A DNA stretch of 64,000 nt from Aestuariibacter sp. (GTDB taxonomy: Bacteria > Pseudomonadota > Gammaproteobacteria > Enterobacterales > Alteromonadaceae), in NCBI GenBank assembly GCA_017794925.1, contig CP051238.1, positions 4,637,021-4,701,020 of the forward strand, in the 5' to 3' direction. Below, one piece after another: positions 53,605 through 64,000 of this stretch. The position numbers and the translations under genes are program-made. Under the pieces are notes generated by a model, which ran no database searches, was not told the origin of the DNA, and was given only the letters and a program-made list of their open reading frames with translations. How positions within the stretch are numbered: the first letter of the stretch is position 1; every line of letters starts with the position of its first letter.

Positions 53605-53872
53605 GAGCGCTCTCCTGGCAGCTTCAATTAAACATAGTCAGATTCAACTATAGCAATACGCCGAGGAAGCACTATTGAATTATTCCACAAAGAATTATGA
53701 AAAAATTTCACTAATCATATCTACAAGCTTGAATGGTCTTTTTTGATGTATTTATTTACGAAAATAAAAGTGTCTCCTATCCTTTTCTACTAAAGGTGAA
53801 AAAATCATCACTCCCCATGTTAGTTAGCCATCTTTCTGTAGGTATGTAAGGCAAGTGGAAACAGGAAATGAA

Positions 53873-55192
53873 ATGCCGCAGCTCGATTCATTAACAGGTC
53901 TTTTCGACAGAACAGAAACAATCTCGTGTGTTGAAACACTGGCGGCCGCGTTCGGAATAGAAAATATAGCCATCATTGATATCGAAATTCTGCGGTTTGG
54001 CAGTATCAATAATGCTGTTGGTACCGACACAGCGGATAAGGTCATCAAAACAGCCGCAAGACGGTTGCTTAAACATTTTTCCCACGTCCCGGCAATTGGA
54101 CGTTTACATGGCGACCATTTTTGTCTTGTCTTTACGAAGCCAGAAATATTGGAAAATGAAGTAAAGAATTTACTTGAATTTACTCAGCGCCCCATGGCCA
54201 TTGAAGGGCAAATCATTGTTTTGGGGTTACGGCTCGGTATTGCCAAAGGTAATGTGTCAACGTCTGACGGAAAAGCGTTAGTCAATCACGCAGAAATTGC
54301 TTTAAACAATGCCAAACGTCGCAACCTGAACATCGTTGAGTTCTGTCCCTCTATGGCGTTGGACGCGCAACAGGTCCACGAAATCGAAAATGATCTGCGC
54401 GTCTCTTTATTTATTAATTCAGCCGAACTACATCAGGCGCTCACGAACAATGAGTTTGAGTTGCACTACCAGCCAATCATTAATATTGAAAAGCAAAGAA
54501 TAGAATATTTCGAGGCCTTAATACGCTGGCGTCACCCGGCAAAAGGCCTTATTCCCCCGCTGCAATTTATTCCTATTGCTGAGCGAATAAATATTATGAA
54601 CGTGCTAGGGCAGTTCATTATAGACAGGGCCTGTCTGGATGCAGCCAAAATTCCCGAAGCACAGGGTTACACACCGGGTATCAGTATTAATATCAGTCCT
54701 TCTCAGTTCCAGGACACAGATATATTGTTAGCAACGCTAAAACGGGCAATAAAACACGCGGGGATTATGAGTAACCATATACAACTGGAGATAACGGAAT
54801 CAACCGAGTTTTGCCATGTTATGGAAGACTCACTGGACGCACTAAAACGTTTGGGCGTAAAGCTGTCAATCGACGACTTCGGCACCGGTTTTTCTGCTAT
54901 ATCCCGGTTAATCGAGCTCCCTTTCGACTGTATAAAAATAGATAAGAGCTTTATTCGTGATCTGATGTGCAATGATGCGAAAACGCGAAACAAAGCAGAG
55001 AAAATGGTCTCAGGACTCATAAAAATTGCTGAATCTATTGGCCTGAAAACGATTGTTGAAGGCGTCGAAACAAAGGAGCAGCTAACGCTGGTAAAGAGCT
55101 TTGGCGCAACGTTAATTCAAGGCTTCTATTTCGCAAAGCCAATGCCTTTCGAGCAAGCTACGTCTTTCTGCATTGAAGAGGAAATAGCATGA
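53873..55192 (+). CDS. c-di-GMP phosphodiesterase (EAL) with degenerate GGDEF domain
   Basis: The ATG at 53873 (439 residues) is preferred since AGGA lies six bases ahead; a GTG at 53855 is possible. The GGDEF site is degenerate (HGDHF at about 79-83), so no cyclase activity is expected. The EAL domain keeps the catalytic set: EALIRWRHP at 214, N-I-S-x-S-Q-F, ITEST, IDDFGTG, IDKSFI, EGVET and QGFYFAKP, so it should cleave c-di-GMP. No membrane segment. Its stop overlaps the BLUF gene start (ATGA), linking it to blue-light sensing. Confidence 0.9.
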   Translation: MPQLDSLTGLFDRTETISCVETLAAAFGIENIAIIDIEILRFGSINNAVGTDTADKVIKTAARRLLKHFSHVPAIGRLHGDHFCLVFTKPEILENEVKNLLEFTQRPMAIEGQIIVLGLRLGIAKGNVSTSDGKALVNHAEIALNNAKRRNLNIVEFCPSMALDAQQVHEIENDLRVSLFINSAELHQALTNNEFELHYQPIINIEKQRIEYFEALIRWRHPAKGLIPPLQFIPIAERINIMNVLGQFIIDRACLDAAKIPEAQGYTPGISINISPSQFQDTDILLATLKRAIKHAGIMSNHIQLEITESTEFCHVMEDSLDALKRLGVKLSIDDFGTGFSAISRLIELPFDCIKIDKSFIRDLMCNDAKTRNKAEKMVSGLIKIAESIGLKTIVEGVETKEQLTLVKSFGATLIQGFYFAKPMPFEQATSFCIEEEIA

Positions 55193-55644
55193 ATGCTCTC
55201 TATCAGATTTCCTATATAAGCCGCAGTGCCATTATCGGTAACCATCAGACAATTGACAACGAAATCGCAAATATTTTACAGGTTGCACAAAGCAACAACC
55301 GCTCGCAAGATATCACCGGCGCACTTCTGTATTCCGGCGGGTATTTCTGTCAGGTTATAGAAGGTATTCAGGAAAATATCGAAACGCTTTTTGAGTCGAT
55401 TCAAATGGATGCCCGTCACAGAGCAGTAACCGTATTAAATTACGAGCCTATCACGTCCCGGCAATTTGGCGATTGGCAGATGGCGCTGGCGGGTATCGAA
55501 GAGCCGCTTCGTTTCCACATCGATGGCCTCGTTGATGATGCCACTCAAATCAAAATCAAAGAAAGCGCCAAGGATATAGTTAACACTCTGTATAAACTGG
55601 TCATGCAAAAGCAGCAGGTATTATTACAACAAACCGCTCGATAA
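55189..55644 (+). CDS. BLUF-domain blue-light photoreceptor
   Basis: 151 residues. FAD-binding and photocycle residues are all visible: Tyr9 in ISYIS, Asn36/37 in NNRSQDITGALL, Gln55 in FCQVIEG, Trp96 and Met98 in DWQMA. A C-terminal helical extension (about 105-151) may bind a partner. The gene is translationally coupled to the EAL phosphodiesterase, so light-dependent control of c-di-GMP breakdown through protein contact is likely. It corresponds to a split version of BLUF-EAL fusions such as BlrP1. Confidence 0.93.
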   Translation: MNALYQISYISRSAIIGNHQTIDNEIANILQVAQSNNRSQDITGALLYSGGYFCQVIEGIQENIETLFESIQMDARHRAVTVLNYEPITSRQFGDWQMALAGIEEPLRFHIDGLVDDATQIKIKESAKDIVNTLYKLVMQKQQVLLQQTAR

Positions 55645-55658
55645 CCTGCCAATGACAT

Positions 55659-56198
55659 TTATAGCGGATAAATCAGCGATACGTTAATGAAGTCAAGACC
55701 GGGATTTGACTCAGTAATACCGCCGTTTGAGTAGTGCATGTAACGCAGCGACACGGAGATACCTGAACTAAGCTGCATACGCAGACCAAGTCTGTCTTCG
55801 AACTGAAACTTCGAGCCCAGATCTTTTTGACCAAAATGCCGGTTTTCCAACAATCCAACACCGATACCAAATTCGAGTTCAACTGGCATCGAAAGCACAC
55901 GTCCCAATGACTTGCGGATGACAGGGGTAATGGCAACAACCGCGTTTCCATTCAGATCAGGCGCGGCCCCGGATGCCTCTAACTGCGTAACGCTGAATTC
56001 AGTAGCAACCGACACTGTGCCTAAAAACGGAAAACGATACGTTGAAGGAGACCAGGGAGACAACCCCAGTCTAGCTCCTGCAATTTCTCCTTCCCCTTCA
56101 AGCACATCTACCGACATTTGATTGAACGCCTTTGCCGATGACATAAATAAGGTGAAGAATAAAATAAACAAAAAAATAACGAAGGGTGCGACACGCAC
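55659..56198 (-). CDS. PagL-like lipid A 3-O-deacylase
   Basis: 179 residues with a signal peptide (to about AKA, residue 24) and an eight-strand barrel pattern. The C-terminus RYMHYSNGGITESNPGLDF matches the PagL active region: His155 and Ser157 occupy the catalytic positions, and Asp169 lies where PagL has Glu. PagL removes the 3-O acyl chain of lipid A in the outer membrane. It sits 81 bases after the RND pump operon on the same strand. Deacylation is expected but untested because of the Glu to Asp change. Confidence 0.7.
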   Translation of the reverse strand: MRVAPFVIFLFILFFTLFMSSAKAFNQMSVDVLEGEGEIAGARLGLSPWSPSTYRFPFLGTVSVATEFSVTQLEASGAAPDLNGNAVVAITPVIRKSLGRVLSMPVELEFGIGVGLLENRHFGQKDLGSKFQFEDRLGLRMQLSSGISVSLRYMHYSNGGITESNPGLDFINVSLIYPL

Positions 56199-56279: not shown

Positions 56280-57671
56280 TTACCCAGCCTTTTGCCAATT
56301 TAGTGCCCCGCTGAAACTGCGGTAGATATCAACCAGGCGAAGGAAGTGCGCCTGTTCGATTTGTGCCAGTTGATCGCGGCTGGCGATTAGCTCGCGCTCT
56401 GAATCGAGCAATTGCAGAAACTCCAGACTTCCCTCCTCGTAGCGGATCCTGGCGATACTCGCTGATTGCTGACTGGCCTTAAATTGCTGCTTGGCACTCG
56501 CTAACTGTTCGCGGCTGTATTGGTAGTTCTGTAACGACAAATCCATGTCATTTACCGCTTCAATCACGCTTTGCTCAAAGCGAGCCAGCTGCGCATCGGC
56601 TTCAGCGTTTGACGCACGTACCTGCGCTTTCACTGCTGACCAGTTTAGCCCCGACCATTGCAACGTGGGCGCAATGCTCCAGCTTTGCGAGGTACTGTTT
56701 AATGCCAGACCTGGCGATGATAAAAAGCCCAGAAACCCACTTACCGAGAGTGACGGATAAAGCGATGCGGTCGCTACGCCAATATCTGCAACAGAAGCTG
56801 CAAGAGCCCGCTCTGCACTGGCCACATCCGGGCGGTACTGCAGGTAGTTTTCGCCTTGCGCTACAGGCAATGGCGATCGCAATGTTGGTAAACTGGCGGC
56901 ACCGCCCAAGTCAAGCTCGTCGGCCTGACGCGCAACCAATGCAGCGAGAGTACGTTTTGCCGTCGCCTGAGCGATGCGCATAGATGGGATATCTGTTTCA
57001 ACCCGGTGAATTTGTGTATCGATTTGCGCCAGCTCGAATGTGATTGCGGTACCTGCATCAACCTGTGCCTGAATGACGTTCCGGCTTTGTTGCAGAAAAG
57101 CCAGATTCATCTGTGCACACACCAAGCGAATCTGCGCACCGCGATATTGCCCATAACTGTTTACTACCTGACTAATCACCTGTAATTGGGCATCACGCCA
57201 CAGTAAATCAGCCTGTTCGGCTCTTGCTAGGGCCGCCTGCTCCGCTCGCACCAACTTGCCAGCAAGATCAGCATCCCAATTCAGTGACAAGCCGGTATTG
57301 AAGCCGCGCAGCTGCACGCCATCGTCGGCGTCGAGCAATGAGGTATTTTCTACCGCCTGATAGCCTGCCGATACACTGCCCTGAGGCCAGCGCTGGGCAC
57401 CAGATTCACTGAACACCGCTTGCGCACGGCGCACGTTAGCGAGCGCTTCGTGCAATGACCGGTTTTCCGTCAGCGCCAGCTCTATTAAAGACGACAAGGT
57501 CTCGTCCTCAAATGCCTGCCACCAGCTTTTCACAGCATCGGCAGTTTGGTAGGACGTTTCCAGTTCAATAGTCGATACTTTATCGGGAGCCTGGTAATCA
57601 GGCCCCACCGCACAGGCAGAGACCATGCCAGTTAGCATTAAAGCCACTGCAACACGAGTAAATTTATGCAT
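56280..57671 (-). CDS. RND efflux outer-membrane factor (OprM/NodT family lipoprotein)
   Basis: 463 residues. The lipoprotein signal ends VSAC (Cys20), followed by AVGPDYQAP, typical of NodT-type factors. Two repeats of long helices and barrel strands follow. It forms the outer-membrane exit duct of the tripartite pump encoded just upstream; its start overlaps the pump stop by eight bases. Confidence 0.93.
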   Translation of the reverse strand: MHKFTRVAVALMLTGMVSACAVGPDYQAPDKVSTIELETSYQTADAVKSWWQAFEDETLSSLIELALTENRSLHEALANVRRAQAVFSESGAQRWPQGSVSAGYQAVENTSLLDADDGVQLRGFNTGLSLNWDADLAGKLVRAEQAALARAEQADLLWRDAQLQVISQVVNSYGQYRGAQIRLVCAQMNLAFLQQSRNVIQAQVDAGTAITFELAQIDTQIHRVETDIPSMRIAQATAKRTLAALVARQADELDLGGAASLPTLRSPLPVAQGENYLQYRPDVASAERALAASVADIGVATASLYPSLSVSGFLGFLSSPGLALNSTSQSWSIAPTLQWSGLNWSAVKAQVRASNAEADAQLARFEQSVIEAVNDMDLSLQNYQYSREQLASAKQQFKASQQSASIARIRYEEGSLEFLQLLDSERELIASRDQLAQIEQAHFLRLVDIYRSFSGALNWQKAG

Positions 57672-60600
57672 GCGTCTCTCCTTCCGGTGATTGTGCTTTC
57701 GAAGCAGTTGCTGGTTGGCGCTTTGCCAGCAGGAAATAAAATAGCGGTGTTAATAGCAAGCCGAAAATGGTCACACCAATCATGCCGGAGAATACCGCCA
57801 CGCCCATTGCCTGACGCATTTCCGCGCCCGCGCCGGTAGAAAACACCAGTGGCGCTACCCCCATAATAAAGGCAATAGAGGTCATCAGAATCGGGCGTAA
57901 CCGCAGTCGGCCTGCTTCCAAAATAGCGTCCATGATCGACAGTCCCTGGTCTTGCAACTCTTTGGCAAACTCCACTATTAAGATAGCGTTCTTGGTAGCC
58001 AGCCCCACCAGCACAATAAAGCCAATCTGGGTAAGAATGTTGTTGTCGCCGCCGTATAGCAGCACACCGCTTAATGCTGACAGCAAGGTCATCGGAATGA
58101 TCAACACAATGGCCATGGGCAGACGCACGCTCTCGTATTGCGCCGCCAAAACCATAAACACCAACACAATCACCAGCGGGAAGACCAACATATTGGCGTT
58201 GCCAGTCAGAATTTGCTGATACGTCAGCTCTGTCCATTCGTAGGTCATGCCGTTGGGTAGGGTTTCAGCCAGGATCTTTTCAATCGCGGCCTGAGCTTCA
58301 CCCGAGCTATAACCCGGCGCAGGACCACCATTAACTTCCGCAGTGGGAAAACCGTTGTAGTGCATGACTCTGTCGGGTCCTGCAACGTCACGAACCTGAA
58401 TAATGGAGTCCAAAGCAACCATTTGACCCGCCTGATTACGCACTTTTAGCTGACCCACTTGTTCGGCTGTCACGCGATACGGCGCATCGGCCTGCATATT
58501 TACCTGAAAGGTACGGCCAAACAGATTGAAGTCGTTTACGTACGTCGCACTCATGTAGCCTTGCAGGGTTTGGAACAACAGATTGAGATCGATACCCTGC
58601 TGTTTGGCTTTCTCGCGATCAATGTCAATGTCAAGCTGCGGCACATTCACCTGATAGCTTGAAAACACGCCAGCCAGTACCGGATCCTGCCAGGCTTTCT
58701 GCATCACCTGCATTGTAGCGTCATTGAGGGCTTCAAATCCGTATCCTGCGCGGTCCTGAATTTGCAGACGGAAGCCACCAATAGTGCCCAGCCCCATCAC
58801 CGGCGGGGGTGGAAAGATGGCCACGAACGCTTCCTGAATAGAGGCATACTTGGCATTAAGTGCGCCGGCTATGGCATTGGCCGACAAAGACGGATCCGTG
58901 CGTTCTGCAAAGTCATCCAGTGTCACAAACACAATGCCGCTGTTGGTGGCGTTGGTGAACCCATTTACACTCAGGCCCGGAAACGCAATGGTATTAGCAA
59001 CACCAGGGTGTTCAAGGGCAATCTCGGACATCCGCGAAATGACACTGTCGGTTCTATCCAATGACGCAGCATTAGGCAGTTGAGCAAACGCAATGAGGTA
59101 CTGCTTGTCTTGCGCCGGAATGTAGCCGGTCGGCGTGGTAGTAAACTGCAAGCCCGTTATGCCTACCAATACCACATACAAAGGCACCACCACGACACCA
59201 AAGCGAATAATCTTTTTCACTACCAGGCCATAGCCTTTGGAAAGTCTGGCGAAGAAGCGGTTGAAAGGCGCAAACAACCAGCCACCGAACAGCTTGTCCA
59301 TCAACCGGGTAAGGCCGTCTTTGGGCGCGTCATGGCCTTTCAGTAACAAGGCTGACAGAGCCGGGCTCAACGTTAACGAGTTGATTGCGGAAATGAACGT
59401 TGAAATGGTAATGGTTAATGCAAACTGCTTGTAAAACTGCCCGGTTAAGCCTGTCATAAAGGCGGTAGGAATAAATACCGACGCGAGAACCAGCGTGGTT
59501 GCCACAATCGGACCGGTCACTTCTTTCATCGCTTTAGTCGTGGCTGCAACGGGCGACAAGCCTTCGCTGATATTACGCTCGACGTTTTCCACCACCACAA
59601 TGGCGTCGTCCACCACGATCCCAATGGCCAGCACCAGGCCGAACAGCGACAGGGCGTTTAACGAAAAACCCATGATCTGCATAAAGGCAAAGGTACCAAT
59701 CAAAGAAACGGGTACCGCCACCAGCGGAATAATAGACGCTCGCCAGGTTTGCAGGAATAGCACCACAACTACAACCACCAGCAAGACCGCTTCAAGTAAG
59801 GTTTTTACGACGGCTTCAATTGAGCCACGCACGAACACAGTCGGGTCGTAGGCCAGTTCATATGCCACGCCTTCCGGGAAGTTTTCAGACAATATCGCCA
59901 TAGTGGCGCGCACATCTTCTGAAATCTGAATGGCGTTTGAACCAGCCGATTGGAATACACCCATACCCACAGCAGGGTTGTTATCGATGGTAGAGCGCAA
60001 GGCATAGGAATCAGCGCCTAATTCGATGCGAGCCACGTCTTTCAGGCGACTAATTGCACCGTTGTCACCGACTTTAATGATGATATTTTCGAACTCTTCA
60101 ACGTTGCTCAATCGACCTTTTACATTCATCAGAATATTAAAGTCAGCCCGCTTTACCGGTTGTGCACCCAGACTACCTGCGACAACCTGCTGGTTCTGTT
60201 CCTGAATGGCACTGGCAATGTCTGATGGAGTGAGATTCAGTGCGGCCACTTTATTTGGATCCAGCCACACACGCATGCTGAATTCACCTGCACCGAACTG
60301 ACGAACCTGGCCAACGCCGTTTATTTTGGCGAGCTCGTCTTTGACATTGAGCGTGGCATAGTTGGCCAGATACAACATGTCATAGCGTTCGTTAGGCGAA
60401 TAAAGGTGCACCACCAGCGTAAGATTAGGCGAGGATTTTTCGGTCACTACGCCCAGTCGCTGTACTTCCTGAGGTAAGCGCGGCACTGCGCGGTCAACCC
60501 GGCTTTGTACCTGTGATTGTGCCAAATCGACATCGGTGCCGATGGCAAAGGTAATCGTGAGGGTCATCAGGCCATCGGCGTTGGCTTGTGAAGACATATA

Positions 60601-60831
60601 CAGCATGTTTTCAACGCCATTAATTTCCTGCTCCAGCGGAGACGCCACAGTTTCAGCGATAACCTGAGGGTTAGCGCCAGGGTAACTGGCGGTCACTACG
60701 ACAGTGGGCGGCACGACTTCGGGGTATTCCGTGATTGGCAGCTGCCACACCGCAATACTGCCGGTTATAATAAACAGTAGCGATAAGACCGATGCGAACA
60801 CCGGTCGGTGAATAAAAAATCGGGAAAACAT
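57664..60831 (-). CDS. RND efflux pump, HAE-1 family (AcrB-like)
   Basis: 1055 residues, normal for HAE-1 pumps. Twelve membrane helices and two large periplasmic loops are implied. Proton-relay helix LFGLVLAIGIVVDDAIVVVENVERN holds the Asp pair, PTAFMTGLTGQFYKQFALTI is the family motif, and the start FSRFFIHRPVFASVLSLLFIITG is typical. It exports drugs, detergents or other amphiphiles using the proton gradient. Middle gene of the operon, eight bases after the membrane-fusion protein. Confidence 0.96.
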   Translation of the reverse strand: MFSRFFIHRPVFASVLSLLFIITGSIAVWQLPITEYPEVVPPTVVVTASYPGANPQVIAETVASPLEQEINGVENMLYMSSQANADGLMTLTITFAIGTDVDLAQSQVQSRVDRAVPRLPQEVQRLGVVTEKSSPNLTLVVHLYSPNERYDMLYLANYATLNVKDELAKINGVGQVRQFGAGEFSMRVWLDPNKVAALNLTPSDIASAIQEQNQQVVAGSLGAQPVKRADFNILMNVKGRLSNVEEFENIIIKVGDNGAISRLKDVARIELGADSYALRSTIDNNPAVGMGVFQSAGSNAIQISEDVRATMAILSENFPEGVAYELAYDPTVFVRGSIEAVVKTLLEAVLLVVVVVVLFLQTWRASIIPLVAVPVSLIGTFAFMQIMGFSLNALSLFGLVLAIGIVVDDAIVVVENVERNISEGLSPVAATTKAMKEVTGPIVATTLVLASVFIPTAFMTGLTGQFYKQFALTITISTFISAINSLTLSPALSALLLKGHDAPKDGLTRLMDKLFGGWLFAPFNRFFARLSKGYGLVVKKIIRFGVVVVPLYVVLVGITGLQFTTTPTGYIPAQDKQYLIAFAQLPNAASLDRTDSVISRMSEIALEHPGVANTIAFPGLSVNGFTNATNSGIVFVTLDDFAERTDPSLSANAIAGALNAKYASIQEAFVAIFPPPPVMGLGTIGGFRLQIQDRAGYGFEALNDATMQVMQKAWQDPVLAGVFSSYQVNVPQLDIDIDREKAKQQGIDLNLLFQTLQGYMSATYVNDFNLFGRTFQVNMQADAPYRVTAEQVGQLKVRNQAGQMVALDSIIQVRDVAGPDRVMHYNGFPTAEVNGGPAPGYSSGEAQAAIEKILAETLPNGMTYEWTELTYQQILTGNANMLVFPLVIVLVFMVLAAQYESVRLPMAIVLIIPMTLLSALSGVLLYGGDNNILTQIGFIVLVGLATKNAILIVEFAKELQDQGLSIMDAILEAGRLRLRPILMTSIAFIMGVAPLVFSTGAGAEMRQAMGVAVFSGMIGVTIFGLLLTPLFYFLLAKRQPATASKAQSPEGETHA

Positions 60832-60839
60832 AATGACTC

Positions 60840-62075
60840 CTATCGCGTTGCCGTTACGTCAAACGAGGCAGACAAGGCAATTTGTGTGGGATCCAGCATG
60901 GCTTGTGATTTGGCAATAGCCGTTAGTGTGGCGTCGTCGGCCATAGGAGTGAGGTCTGGATTGATTGTCATACCGGGCATGACGCGCTGCAGTCCATTTA
61001 CCACAATGGTGTCACCGGGTTGAAGACCAGAGGTTACCAGGCGCAGATCCCCCACAGATTCACCCAGCGTAATTGGGCGATATTCAATGGCGTTGTTTTG
61101 CGCCACGACCAACACAAACTTGTTGTTTAAGTCGGTACCCACGGCTTTTTCATCAATTAAAATGCCGTCGTGCGGCTGACTACCTGCCAGGCGAATACGC
61201 GCATACAGACCAGGCACTAATACACCATCGTCATTACTAAAACGTGCTCTTACCGTAATGCCGCCGGTTTGCTGGTCGACCTGGTTGTCTACAAAATCGA
61301 TGTAGCCGCGGTACTGAAATGCGTTGTCACCAGACAACGCCAGCGCAACCGGTTGATTCGCGCCGTTGTTATCAGACCCATTCTGGATTACCGCACTGCG
61401 AACGTAGCGCAGGTAGGTTTGCTCATCGACGCTGAAATAAGCATACATCTCTTCAACTGACACAATACTGGTAACGGCGCTCTGCCCGGCAGTAACATAG
61501 TTACCCTGTGTAATGTGCGCACGTGAAACACGCCCTGATACCGGCGCTGTTACCTTGGTATAAGACAAATCTAATTCAGCGCGTTCCACTGCTGCACTCA
61601 GGGCAGACACATTGGCTTTTGCCTGTTGCAATGCTGCAAAGCGACCATCAAGAGCTTCCTGAGAAATGGCTTGCTGTGTACTCAGGCGCTGACCGCGCTC
61701 ATAGTCATTTTTAGCAAGCGTTAACTGGCTGGTTGCACTGTCCAGTTCTGCTTGCAATCTGGCAACTTCAACTTCAAAGGGCGCAGGGTCGATTTCAAGC
61801 AATACATCACCTGCTTTAACTAGGGCGCCTTCTTTAAAGTGAATGTGATTAACGTAACCGGATACGCGTGGCATTAACGTCACAGACTCAGGGGCGCTGA
61901 GCCGGCCACTAAATTCATCCCAGTCACTAACCTGCATATTAACTACTTCAGCCACGCTAACTGTTGGCGCCGTCATTTGCTGAGCAGGTTGTTGTGCATC
62001 GCTACCACAGCCAGCGAGTACAACAATGGCAATAGCGCTTAATAAAAATAGCCTGGCGGTGTGTCGTGTTGACAT
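60840..62075 (-). CDS. RND membrane-fusion protein (AcrA-like lipoprotein)
   Basis: 411 residues. The lipoprotein signal ends VLAGC (Cys23). Lipoyl (SGYVNHIHFKEGALVKAGDVLLEID and VTAPVSGRVSRAHITQGNYV), helical-hairpin and beta-barrel parts are in the usual order. It links the pump to the outer-membrane factor. First gene of the operon; one copy of the probable AraC operator lies about 117 bases upstream of its start. Confidence 0.95.
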   Translation of the reverse strand: MSTRHTARLFLLSAIAIVVLAGCGSDAQQPAQQMTAPTVSVAEVVNMQVSDWDEFSGRLSAPESVTLMPRVSGYVNHIHFKEGALVKAGDVLLEIDPAPFEVEVARLQAELDSATSQLTLAKNDYERGQRLSTQQAISQEALDGRFAALQQAKANVSALSAAVERAELDLSYTKVTAPVSGRVSRAHITQGNYVTAGQSAVTSIVSVEEMYAYFSVDEQTYLRYVRSAVIQNGSDNNGANQPVALALSGDNAFQYRGYIDFVDNQVDQQTGGITVRARFSNDDGVLVPGLYARIRLAGSQPHDGILIDEKAVGTDLNNKFVLVVAQNNAIEYRPITLGESVGDLRLVTSGLQPGDTIVVNGLQRVMPGMTINPDLTPMADDATLTAIAKSQAMLDPTQIALSASFDVTATR

Positions 62076-62191
62076 GTCTCACTCCTGTTTGGGACGATTT
62101 CAAAGTAAATGTGAGCAATGGGGAGTGCTCAATCAGAAGTGAAAAGTCTAATGTCAGAAAGAGGGAACGATAATATCCGAAACTCGGCAAT

Positions 62192-62209
62192 CATTGCACA
62201 TTTCTACAA
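62192..62209 (+). promoter_or_regulatory. probable AraC-type operator, copy 1 (near RND operon)
   Basis: CATTGC-N6-CTACAA. With the four preceding bases the 22-base segment 62188-62209 matches 62352-62373 at 18 positions. Two half-sites on one face of the helix fit an AraC-family monomer site. Confidence 0.6.
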
Positions 62210-62355
62210 CCGATAGAGGATCATGCAATCCACACGCAGTATCAGGCAAGACTGAGCATTTTGTAAAAAAATATAACCACAACGAAACAAAAGTCACGTG
62301 TTGCAAGCACCATAGATAAATTAACGCAAGTTTGGGTTGTCGATATCTACACAAT

Positions 62356-62388
62356 CATTGCCTAATCCTACAATGCCTGATTCTACAA
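62356..62388 (+). promoter_or_regulatory. probable AraC-type operators, copies 2 and 3 (near the regulator gene)
   Basis: CATTGC-N6-CTACAA (62356-62373) and CAATGC-N6-CTACAA (62371-62388) overlap by three bases with a 15-base offset, 67-99 bases before the regulator ATG. They imply autoregulation together with control of the pump operon. Confidence 0.6.
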
Positions 62389-62454
62389 ATTGGCTGGATA
62401 AATATTACACTCTATACTTAGCAAACTGTCGCACATCATTCGCCTGGAGAATTC

Positions 62455-63366
62455 ATGCATACTCAAGCCCAGATATATCAACAAGAGCTAATCGATATGA
62501 CCGCCCGGGTAAGTCAGGAGAATGGCCTGATGGATACGCGCGTGCCTGGACTACGTACTTTGCGTAGTAATTCAAAAACCTGTACCGCCCCGGCGATATA
62601 TGAGCCCATGCTATGCCTGCTACTCCAAGGCAGTAAAAAGCTCTACGTCGGTGAGAACGTATTCCACTACAACGCCTTAGACTATCTGATGGTCCCCATT
62701 ATGATGCCGGTGATTGGTGAAATTGTGCAGGCCTGCGACAGTGAGCCTTACGTCGGGATCAGTATTGCGCTGGACCTTCGGGAGCTGTCGGAGCTATTAA
62801 TTGATATGGCTGACGTAGGCACACCGACTTGTGGCAAAGAATGCAGTATTAAAGTTATCGATGCTGATATTGAGATGCTTTCAACCTTTAAACGTATATT
62901 GTCACTTCATGAGTCGCCAGCAGATATCCCGATCATGCTGCCAATGTTAAAGCGTGAGTTAATGTACCGGGTGTTAAAAGGGCCAGCCGGTAACCAGTTG
63001 CGCCAGTTTTTACTCTACGATACTAACGCCAATCGCATTAGTAAGGCTATTGAGATTATTCGGGATAACTTCGATTCGCCATTAAAGGTAAAATCTCTGG
63101 CCAGCGCCGTTCATATGAGTGAATCCTCGCTGTACAGCACTTTCAAAGCGGTAACCAGCATGTCACCACTGCAATACCAGAAACACTTTCGCCTTAACGA
63201 AGCCCGCCGTTTGATGTTACATGAAGGCATTGAAGCCGCTGCCGCGGGTTATAAAGTAGGTTATGAAAGTCCGTCACAGTTCAGCCGCGAATACAGCCGC
63301 TTATTCGGCGCACCACCCATCACTGATATCAACCGCGTAAAATTGGCGCAAGCTGCTGCTTCCTGA
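62455..63366 (+). CDS. AraC-family regulator, likely controller of the RND operon
   Basis: 303 residues. An N-terminal AraC_N-type sensing domain (YEPMLCLLLQGSKKLYVGENVFHYNALDYLMVPI) and a C-terminal double helix-turn-helix (LKVKSLASAVHMSESSLYSTFKAVTSMSPLQYQKHFRLNEARRLML, then AAAGYKVGYESPSQFSREYSRLFGAPP). Divergent from the pump operon and flanked by repeated operator-like sites. The inducer is unknown. Confidence 0.9.
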   Translation: MHTQAQIYQQELIDMTARVSQENGLMDTRVPGLRTLRSNSKTCTAPAIYEPMLCLLLQGSKKLYVGENVFHYNALDYLMVPIMMPVIGEIVQACDSEPYVGISIALDLRELSELLIDMADVGTPTCGKECSIKVIDADIEMLSTFKRILSLHESPADIPIMLPMLKRELMYRVLKGPAGNQLRQFLLYDTNANRISKAIEIIRDNFDSPLKVKSLASAVHMSESSLYSTFKAVTSMSPLQYQKHFRLNEARRLMLHEGIEAAAAGYKVGYESPSQFSREYSRLFGAPPITDINRVKLAQAAAS

Positions 63367-63443: not shown

Positions 63444-64000
63444 TTAATCCAAACCGGTAGGTTTCGCACTCAATCCCGCTTCGCTTTGGGCTATGACTTT
63501 GTCGATATTGCTACTCGTTAAGCGTATTGGCCAGTCAGTCTCTTGCGGCTCTGATGCAAACATCGCTTCGATAATACGATCGCCCATGGCGGGCCGGTAG
63601 TGCGCGGGTTCCCAGAACCATTTCATTGGCTCGCGGTTTTGCGCATAATCCGGATCTTCCAGCGTTTCTTTTGATGGCAAGCTGAAGTCATAAAAAGGAA
63701 ATTGCGGATAGGTATCGGCTAAGCCGGCTAAGTCACGCTTCCACTGCAAATAATCAGGCCAATGACCCGTTTGCTTAATCACCTGCCAATAAGACTGGTG
63801 ATAGGGATTAATAAACGTGTATAGCGTCACCTGGGGGTGGTTGGCTACCAGTTCATCAATAAACGTCTTGTACATCCCAATACCAAATAAGCCGTGCTCA
63901 CCACTATAACTGTACTGTTCTCGCTCAAAGCGCTGTTGCACGCCACTTTGCTGATGCTCGAAAAAGCGCTGTTTGCCTTCCGCTTTTATTGTCGCCAGGT
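63444..64000 (-). CDS. conserved hypothetical, SGNH-hydrolase-like C-terminal part; 5' end outside window
   Basis: The minus-strand frame is open from the window edge to the stop at 63444 (about 185 codons). No internal start needs to be assumed: the residues upstream of the GTG at 63941 (KQRFFEHQQSGV) read on smoothly. Segments such as YTFINPYHQSYWQVI, FPFYDFSLPSKETL and WFWEPAHYRPAMGDRII resemble the C-terminal half of SGNH-like proteins found in polysaccharide-acylation loci, with the DxxH-like final His in AHYRP. The full protein is needed to confirm this. Confidence 0.5.
   Translation of the reverse strand, partial: LATIKAEGKQRFFEHQQSGVQQRFEREQYSYSGEHGLFGIGMYKTFIDELVANHPQVTLYTFINPYHQSYWQVIKQTGHWPDYLQWKRDLAGLADTYPQFPFYDFSLPSKETLEDPDYAQNREPMKWFWEPAHYRPAMGDRIIEAMFASEPQETDWPIRLTSSNIDKVIAQSEAGLSAKPTGLD

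Follow-up and report, generated by a model that had tools for sequence, protein, structure and literature searches.

Repeats between an RND pump operon and its divergent AraC-type regulator: very probable docking sites of the regulator, with a spacing rule common to many relatives

In the genome of Aestuariibacter sp., an operon for an RND pump and the gene of an AraC-type regulator diverge from a 379-bp gap (the adaptor begins at 62075 on the minus strand and the regulator at 62455 on the plus strand) that holds several copies of a short repeat. What do these repeats do, and does their arrangement follow a rule? Judging from sequence comparison, they very probably serve the regulator as docking sites, and their spacing follows a rule shared by many of its relatives. 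The whole explanation, in which the repeats form the operator of a YqhC-type regulator that activates the pump in the class-II manner and also controls its own gene, appears likely to us. An AraC-type activator beside its target is a well-known kind of system.

The window, i.e. the whole stretch of 64,000 nucleotides that was analysed, contains the genes and predicted sites collected in Table 1. The regulator combines an N-terminal AraC_N domain (PF06719; 142.3 bits at a cut-off of 24.2) with a C-terminal double helix-turn-helix (HTH_18, 68.7 bits), which is the domain composition of the YqhC type; the solved structures that match it (six sequences) cover the DNA-binding half only, from residue 189 on. 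Its nearest named relative is Marisediminitalea aggregata, whose regulator is 99% identical. The divergent operon encodes an RND adaptor, a permease and an outer-membrane protein. With 465.8 bits against a cut-off of 714, the adaptor does not reach an equivalog-level match to MexE in NCBIfam and is best called MexE-like.

Table 1. Genes, operator sites and predicted promoter elements of the locus (window coordinates)
Feature	Position	Strand	Remark
Outer-membrane efflux protein, NodT type	56280..57671	-	TIGR01845 above cut-off
RND permease	57664..60831	-	NF000282 above cut-off
RND periplasmic adaptor	60840..62075	-	Best NCBIfam match MexE, below cut-off
Predicted pump -10, TAGACT	62145..62150	-	Offset -49 from B
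Predicted weak pump -35, TTATCG	62168..62173	-	-26 from B; 17 bp from -10; touches site A
Site A, weak copy ATATCCGAAACTCG at pump -35	62173..62186	+	21 bp before B
Site B, strict site TTGCACATTTCTAC; first repeat copy of the preliminary description	62194..62207	+	0 mismatches to TTGCMYRWTYCTNY, 9/9 gaps
Site C, strict inverted site TTGCATGATCCTCT	62215..62228	-	35-bp dyad with B; 0 mismatches, 9/9 gaps
Site G, second inverted site TTGCCTGATACTGC	62236..62249	-	21 bp beyond C; 1-2 mismatches, 9/9 gaps
Site D, weak copy TTGTCGATATCTAC	62337..62350	+	21 bp before E
Site E, strict site TTGCCTAATCCTAC; second repeat copy	62358..62371	+	0 mismatches
Site F, extra overlapping copy ATGCCTGATTCTAC; third repeat copy	62373..62386	+	At most 1 mismatch in 3/9 gaps
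Predicted regulator -10, TATACT	62413..62418	+	
AraC_N (PF06719) + HTH_18 regulator, 303 aa	62455..63366	+	Pfam E 1.1e-41 and 5.6e-19

The preliminary description of this gap had listed three copies of CAWTGC-N6-CTACAA, and all of them are present: CATTGCACATTTCTACAA at 62192-62209, CATTGCCTAATCCTACAA at 62356-62373 and CAATGCCTGATTCTACAA at 62371-62388, the last being the weakest of the three exact copies (ATGC in place of TTGC). The direct repeat reported with them was also recovered, the 22-mers at 62188 and 62352 being identical at 18 of 22 positions by our own count. Exact matches to this pattern occur five times in the whole genome (4,744,784 bases, 4.74 Mb), and three of the five lie in the 379-bp gap. 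Around the other two (genome positions 2090475 and 2632812), a tblastn search with the regulator gave no match in either fetched stretch. Allowing up to one mismatch yields 78 matches genome-wide versus 33 for the reversed pattern; with near-matches so common, single occurrences carry little information and the weight lies in the clustering alone. This clustering was evident with two matrices. The first, made from the 18 pump-side inverted arms of nine orthologous loci, places the four best positions of the 64-kb window in this gap (scores 26.4 to 15.4, next 13.5), although the window's own two arms were included and score high by construction. The second, built only from the upstream regions of other AraC_N regulators, places the five best positions here (22.1 to 14.1, next 11.6). 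Two inverted copies that the preliminary description lacked lie at 62215-62228 and, 21 bp further on, at 62236-62249. The repeat unit seems better written as TTGCMYRWTYCTNY and read as the site of one regulator subunit; rather than a complete operator of two half-sites, as proposed before, each copy would offer a TTGC and a TYCT box on neighbouring turns to one subunit, the sites being paired 21 bp apart.

Conservation was assessed in the genus. The regulator has matches at E <= 1e-40 in 24 of 59 genomes, and only eight, the window's included, reach at least 60% identity. Seven of these eight orthologue genomes carry the adaptor upstream in the fetched locus. In the eighth, Alteromonas alba (G004), an IS66-type transposase gene directly precedes the regulator, and a different contig carries the gap and the adaptor. 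Together with Aestuariibacter sp. GS-14 (93%), the eight genomes provide nine gaps. The mean column identity in an alignment of seven of the nine gaps is 53%, and the TTGC and TYCT boxes are kept. The repeats are thus conserved among orthologous regions, the opposite of what had been named as grounds for giving up the operator reading. As a side observation in Alteromonas alba, the regulator's -10 region GTTATACT is present at both junctions of the IS66-type element (L012 2404-3215 and L059 1400-1956), which would fit an 8-bp target duplication.

On the pump side, four sites stand at an equal pitch of 21 bp (starting at 62173, 62194, 62215 and 62236), the last two inverted, and this array recurs in all nine orthologous gaps. 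Where a single pump site had been proposed originally, site B is accompanied by an inverted pair in exact steps of 21 bp and by a fourth, weak copy at the -35. The mismatch counts of B and C have to be read with the fact that eight positions of each were matched by construction of the search. Site G, which was revealed by the matrix from other AraC_N regulators, is specific in its offset, with a mean of 1.4 mismatches here versus 6.7 to 9.7 at 13 other tested offsets. Site A is the weakest part of the array: it has six mismatches to the 14-mer in the window and four to six across the nine gaps, its score in a degenerate-copy matrix is 7.2 (chance about 0.001 for one place), and it is convincing only through its offset of -21. 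The 35-bp dyad TTGC-N4-TYCT-N11-AGRA-N4-GCAA was found once in each of the eight orthologue-bearing genomes of the genus and in two of the other 51. The reversed control gave 13 matches in 12 of the 59 genomes, so the argument rests on the dyad's position and fixed gap and not on its rarity. For the same reason a claim of rarity for the dyad with a free gap of 6-16 was rejected (10 of 59 genomes versus 13 control matches in 12 genomes). The two dyads outside the orthologues were also discarded, the one in G051 lying between convergent genes and looking like a terminator, the one in G021 having a different gap length.

The predicted pump -10 appears across the nine gaps as TAGACT, TACACT, TAATAT, TAAAAT or TAGTAT, and the predicted -35 starts with TTA in all nine and agrees with three to four of the six consensus letters (own count). 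This assignment, which rests on the family offset of -49, the conserved TACACT/TAGACT and a 17-bp spacer, replaced an earlier candidate, TAATATC next to B. Two further promoter candidates were rejected. Sites C and G do not appear to serve a second promoter facing the regulator: TATAAC stands at the right offset only in the window, G003 and GS-14, the other six gaps have zero to two of six letters there, and no conserved promoter of their own was found. Nor does site E appear to drive the pump as well, with four of six letters in two of the nine gaps and one to three in the rest.

On the regulator side, site E has the top family-matrix score of the window (22.1) and lies 55 bp before the regulator's TATAAT-like -10 in eight of the nine gaps. 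Site D has three mismatches in the window, two to three in eight of the nine gaps and seven in the ninth (G009), with a degenerate-matrix score of 8.1. Among the nine gaps, site F is limited to the window and its two nearest relatives, G003 and GS-14. The suggestion of two autoregulatory sites is therefore to be narrowed, as only the site at 62358 is kept in relatives and the copy at 62371/62373 occurs in three of the nine orthologous gaps.

To what extent the word belongs to the regulator family was addressed with upstream regions of AraC_N genes from 398 Pseudomonadota genomes, of which 126 had matches; all counts are among the matches listed. The sample comprised 110 regions for discovery (two of them, L098 and L101, being the same places as L083 and L076) and 33 held out; seven others were omitted as already examined or from the window genome. 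When all words of 4+4 letters with gaps of 0-8 were ranked, the commonest was, unprompted, TTGC-N4-TCCT, present in 54 of the 110 regions versus five for its reverse complement. With TYCT in the second box, the word occurs on the sense strand in 72 of the 110 (antisense 7, reversed 1), in 65 of the 103 left once similar upstream regions had been taken out (antisense 4, reversed 1), and at least once in 23 of the 27 sampled taxonomic families. The logo 14-mer with at most one mismatch was found on the sense strand in 98 of the 110 (antisense 8, reversed 3), from which the family consensus itself was drawn, and in 23 of the 33 held-out regions (antisense 0, reversed 0), which are lower-scoring matches of the same search with some shared genera and hence not fully independent. 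Conversely, 12 of the 110 and 10 of the 33 regulators lack the word within one mismatch, and one of the window genome's two other AraC_N genes (625640) is without such an upstream word. In the control family AraC_binding (PF02311), 30 upstream regions gave one sense and one antisense match. The identification of the repeats as the operator of the divergent AraC-type regulator, made in the preliminary description, thus gains from both sides, the copies being kept in orthologous gaps and the word standing upstream of most sampled AraC_N regulators. A search of 295 family genomes with GATTGCANRATYCTNNA was set aside: among its 15 listed places in 13 genomes, only one, the window's own site C, lies beside an AraC_N gene by tblastn of the loci retrieved.

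The spacing was analysed at 96 exact sites found in 85 of the 143 AraC_N upstream regions. The matrix shows one clear additional peak, at -21 on the same strand, where the score is positive at 41 of the 96 sites, compared with none at -20, one at -22 and three at +21. On the other strand, a TATAAT-like word (at least four of six letters) stands at -49 in 35 of the 96, compared with a median of 2% at other offsets. Family-wide there is only a slight preference for a regulator -10 at +55 (9 of 95). The -35 consensus showed no enrichment at -26 across the family, being present there at 7 of 96 sites with its highest count, 17, at -20, and an inverted partner at +21 was found at none of the 96 family sites. 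Separately, we noted an inverted partner at +22, the spacing of E. coli yqhC, at six of the 96 sites with at most three mismatches. In the window, the strict 14-mer stands on the regulator's sense strand without a mismatch at B and E, and TAGACT at 62150-62145, at -49 from B, is kept in form in nine of nine gaps.

An outside promoter assignment is available for E. coli yqhD. A passage of PMC6115493 that cites Lee 2010 gives the yqhD promoter as -35 TTGAGA and -10 CACAAT. In E. coli K-12 these elements lie exactly -26 and -49 from the strict site TTGCCTATTTCTCC, with a copy at -21. That this assignment agrees with the window is the strongest single support for our reading; like yqhD, the predicted pump promoter fits the family offsets of -21 and -49, with a poor weak copy. 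E. coli YqhC resembles the window's regulator in its AraC_N architecture (34% identity over the match) and its divergent target, and the yqhC-yqhD gap also has an inverted arm beyond the strict site. We take the stretch ATTTCTCCAG-AGTG-CTGGAGAAAT to be the 24-bp palindrome that a passage of PMC6115493 mentions without letters. The two systems differ in several respects. The YqhC target is an aldehyde reductase and not a pump; the inverted arm stands at 22 bp and has lost its TTGC box, whereas in the window it stands at 21 bp, retains TTGC and is joined by a fourth site; and the matrix scan found no separate regulator-side module in the yqhC-yqhD gap. According to excerpts of the respective papers, YqhC responds to aldehydes (PMC6115493) and purified YqhC selected a single site (PMC8249747).

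From the sites, conservation, spacing and promoter offsets computed here, we infer binding, the seating of the dimers, the sign of regulation and the inducer. Each copy of TTGCMYRWTYCTNY would take one subunit, whose two helix-turn-helix units, by analogy with AraC-family structure, would read the TTGC and TYCT boxes. B would be the strong site, and A, 21 bp nearer the promoter and abutting the poor -35, the weak one; a dimer on A-B would then recruit RNA polymerase to the pump -10 at 62150-62145. Such class-II activation is suggested by the combination of a weak site by a poor -35 with a strong site 21 bp above it in the same direction, as for AraC on araI1-araI2. Sites C and G, inverted and one 21-bp step apart, might hold a second dimer, or B-C might be an alternative seat for the idle dimer. 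Site E, which covers roughly -67 to -54 relative to the start of the regulator, would serve autoregulation together with the weak D. By analogy with YqhC, the reductase neighbours of the AraC_N family and the MexEF-like pump, the inducer is likely to be a reactive carbonyl or another electrophile.

Two ideas that go together reach further, and we advance the pair only tentatively. One is that a single operator grammar, consisting of the strict 14-mer, a weak copy at -21 and a target -10 at -49, serves much of AraC_N across Pseudomonadota. The other is that the pump operator, a symmetric array of weak-strong and strong-weak sites with the flip in the middle, acts as a compact local switch: the dimer would rest on B-C away from the -35 when there is no inducer, and with inducer it would move to A-B and contact polymerase, while C-G would seat a second dimer.

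Among the alternatives, long-range looping as in AraC is the one that survives best, though we regard it as improbable. Here a dimer would bridge E and B (or C) over about 164 bp, shutting both promoters until it is shifted to A-B by the inducer. That one short gap carries sites at both of its promoters would suit such a loop; the textbook example, in the passages of PMC6018408, is araO2/araI1 with a spacing of about 200 bp. However, the B-E distance in the nine gaps (164, 165, 165, 177, 182, 177, 187, 183 and 174) does not keep to whole helical turns, and a search for helical phasing between the two sites in these gaps found none. With the pump -10 fixed relative to B, E fixed relative to the regulator's -10 in eight of nine gaps, and B-E drifting from 164 to 187, each site appears tied to its own promoter. 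The fixed turn of a phased loop is thus missing, and a flexible loop stays compatible with the data. In Alteromonas alba the IS66-type element leaves B and E together and lies between the gene, on one side, and E with the copy of the regulator's -10, on the other, so it is no test of looping.

Repression through the same operator is less likely still. Polymerase would be blocked by a dimer seated on B-C, or else on A-B where it covers the -35, until the inducer releases that dimer, and it is true that site A touches the -35 and that the B-C dyad is the most symmetric and strictest part of the array. A poor -35 is usual at activator-dependent promoters, and the pump's is of this kind in all nine gaps, which speaks against repression. 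Moreover, passages of PMC6115493 and PMC8249747 describe YqhC as an activator of yqhD, where the offsets are identical. It is very improbable that the motif serves a different regulator, or that it is a structural or neutral element preserved by shared descent alone. Although the nine gaps are homologous DNA, so that conservation inside them is not independent, the word stands in the same orientation upstream of AraC_N genes in 23 of 27 sampled taxonomic families and upstream of only 1 of 30 AraC_binding-type regulators, and the boxes are kept in gaps whose mean column identity is 53%.

Activation by the divergent regulator, our preferred reading, has parallels in other systems. On araI1-araI2 (pBAD), AraC occupies a direct 21-bp repeat with the weak site next to the -35. 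In the window the geometry of this light switch (weak site over the -35, strong site 21 bp upstream in the same direction) recurs in position and direction, with a poor site A that leaves the likeness tentative. In contrast to the window, AraC has an AraC_binding ligand domain in place of AraC_N and a different DNA word, and it lacks the four-site array; the window in turn has no fixed loop spacing. CmrA of P. aeruginosa, which we take to be an AraC_N member, offers a second comparison. The AraC switch between sites is described in a section of PMC6018408, and CmrA appears in parts of PMC10333786 and PMC6018408 as an AraC-family activator connected with electrophile stress and MexEF-OprN; in PMC10333786 this pump answers electrophiles through CmrA. 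The likeness lies in the activator type, the stress and the MexEF-type pump, but according to these passages CmrA acts via MexS and MexT and not on an adjacent pump (PMC10333786, PMC6018408). Outside the genus, two AraC_N regulators, at L075 (G700) and L126 (G891), stand beside a divergent RND adaptor (41% over 295 aa and 54% over 71 aa, respectively) and have strict sites. L126 shares with the window the -10 TAGACT at -49, and no B-C-G array was found within its fetched stretch. L075 has three sense-strand sites, two of them 21 bp apart.

The family-wide word with its spacing and the four-site array were not found in the open-access literature, and YqhC papers and supplementary logos outside this coverage may describe them. 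Within the portions of the papers covered, PMC8262776 has the word only inside a primer, PMC8464067 states that its supplementary figure S4 shows YqhC site patterns, and PMC8041468 is a P. aeruginosa atlas with logo figures.

A scan with a strict 16-mer gave no sign of a wider regulon. In the window's own genome it occurs at two places, both in this gap. Across the 59 genus genomes it occurs at 44 places, 17 in pump gaps and 27 elsewhere, versus 22 with the reversed pattern as control. Because sites C and G escape this 16-mer, weaker targets may do so as well. Few AraC_N regulators have been studied so far. If the spacing rule holds, the switch of such genes would be largely readable from sequence, and one could predict for many AraC_N regulators which promoters they act on, where transcription starts and what their likely targets are. 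The rule may also bear on how bacteria sense reactive aldehydes, as carbonyl reductases make up 15 of 30 chosen neighbours of AraC_N genes (L087-L116): seven short-chain dehydrogenases, six aldo-keto reductases, and one Fe- and one Zn-alcohol dehydrogenase. The others are two ABM-domain proteins, six other families and seven without a family; one neighbour per locus was tentatively chosen from its length and codon bias, a choice that does not always hit the true neighbour. At this locus, the rule would bear on how an RND pump is tied to reactive-aldehyde stress, and the four-site array lends itself to testing cleanly whether a dimer of the AraC type is able to select between an inverted pair and a direct one with one site in common.

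Some neighbouring features of the window were noted as well. An open frame at 63444-63998 on the minus strand, cut by the window end, is without a Pfam match. A gene for a PagL-type lipid A 3-O-deacylase (55659-56198, minus strand) directly follows the pump's outer-membrane gene on the same strand. Finally, a GGDEF/EAL gene and a gene for a BLUF blue-light sensor overlap by four bases at 53855-55644 on the plus strand and are likely to form a light-controlled c-di-GMP pair.
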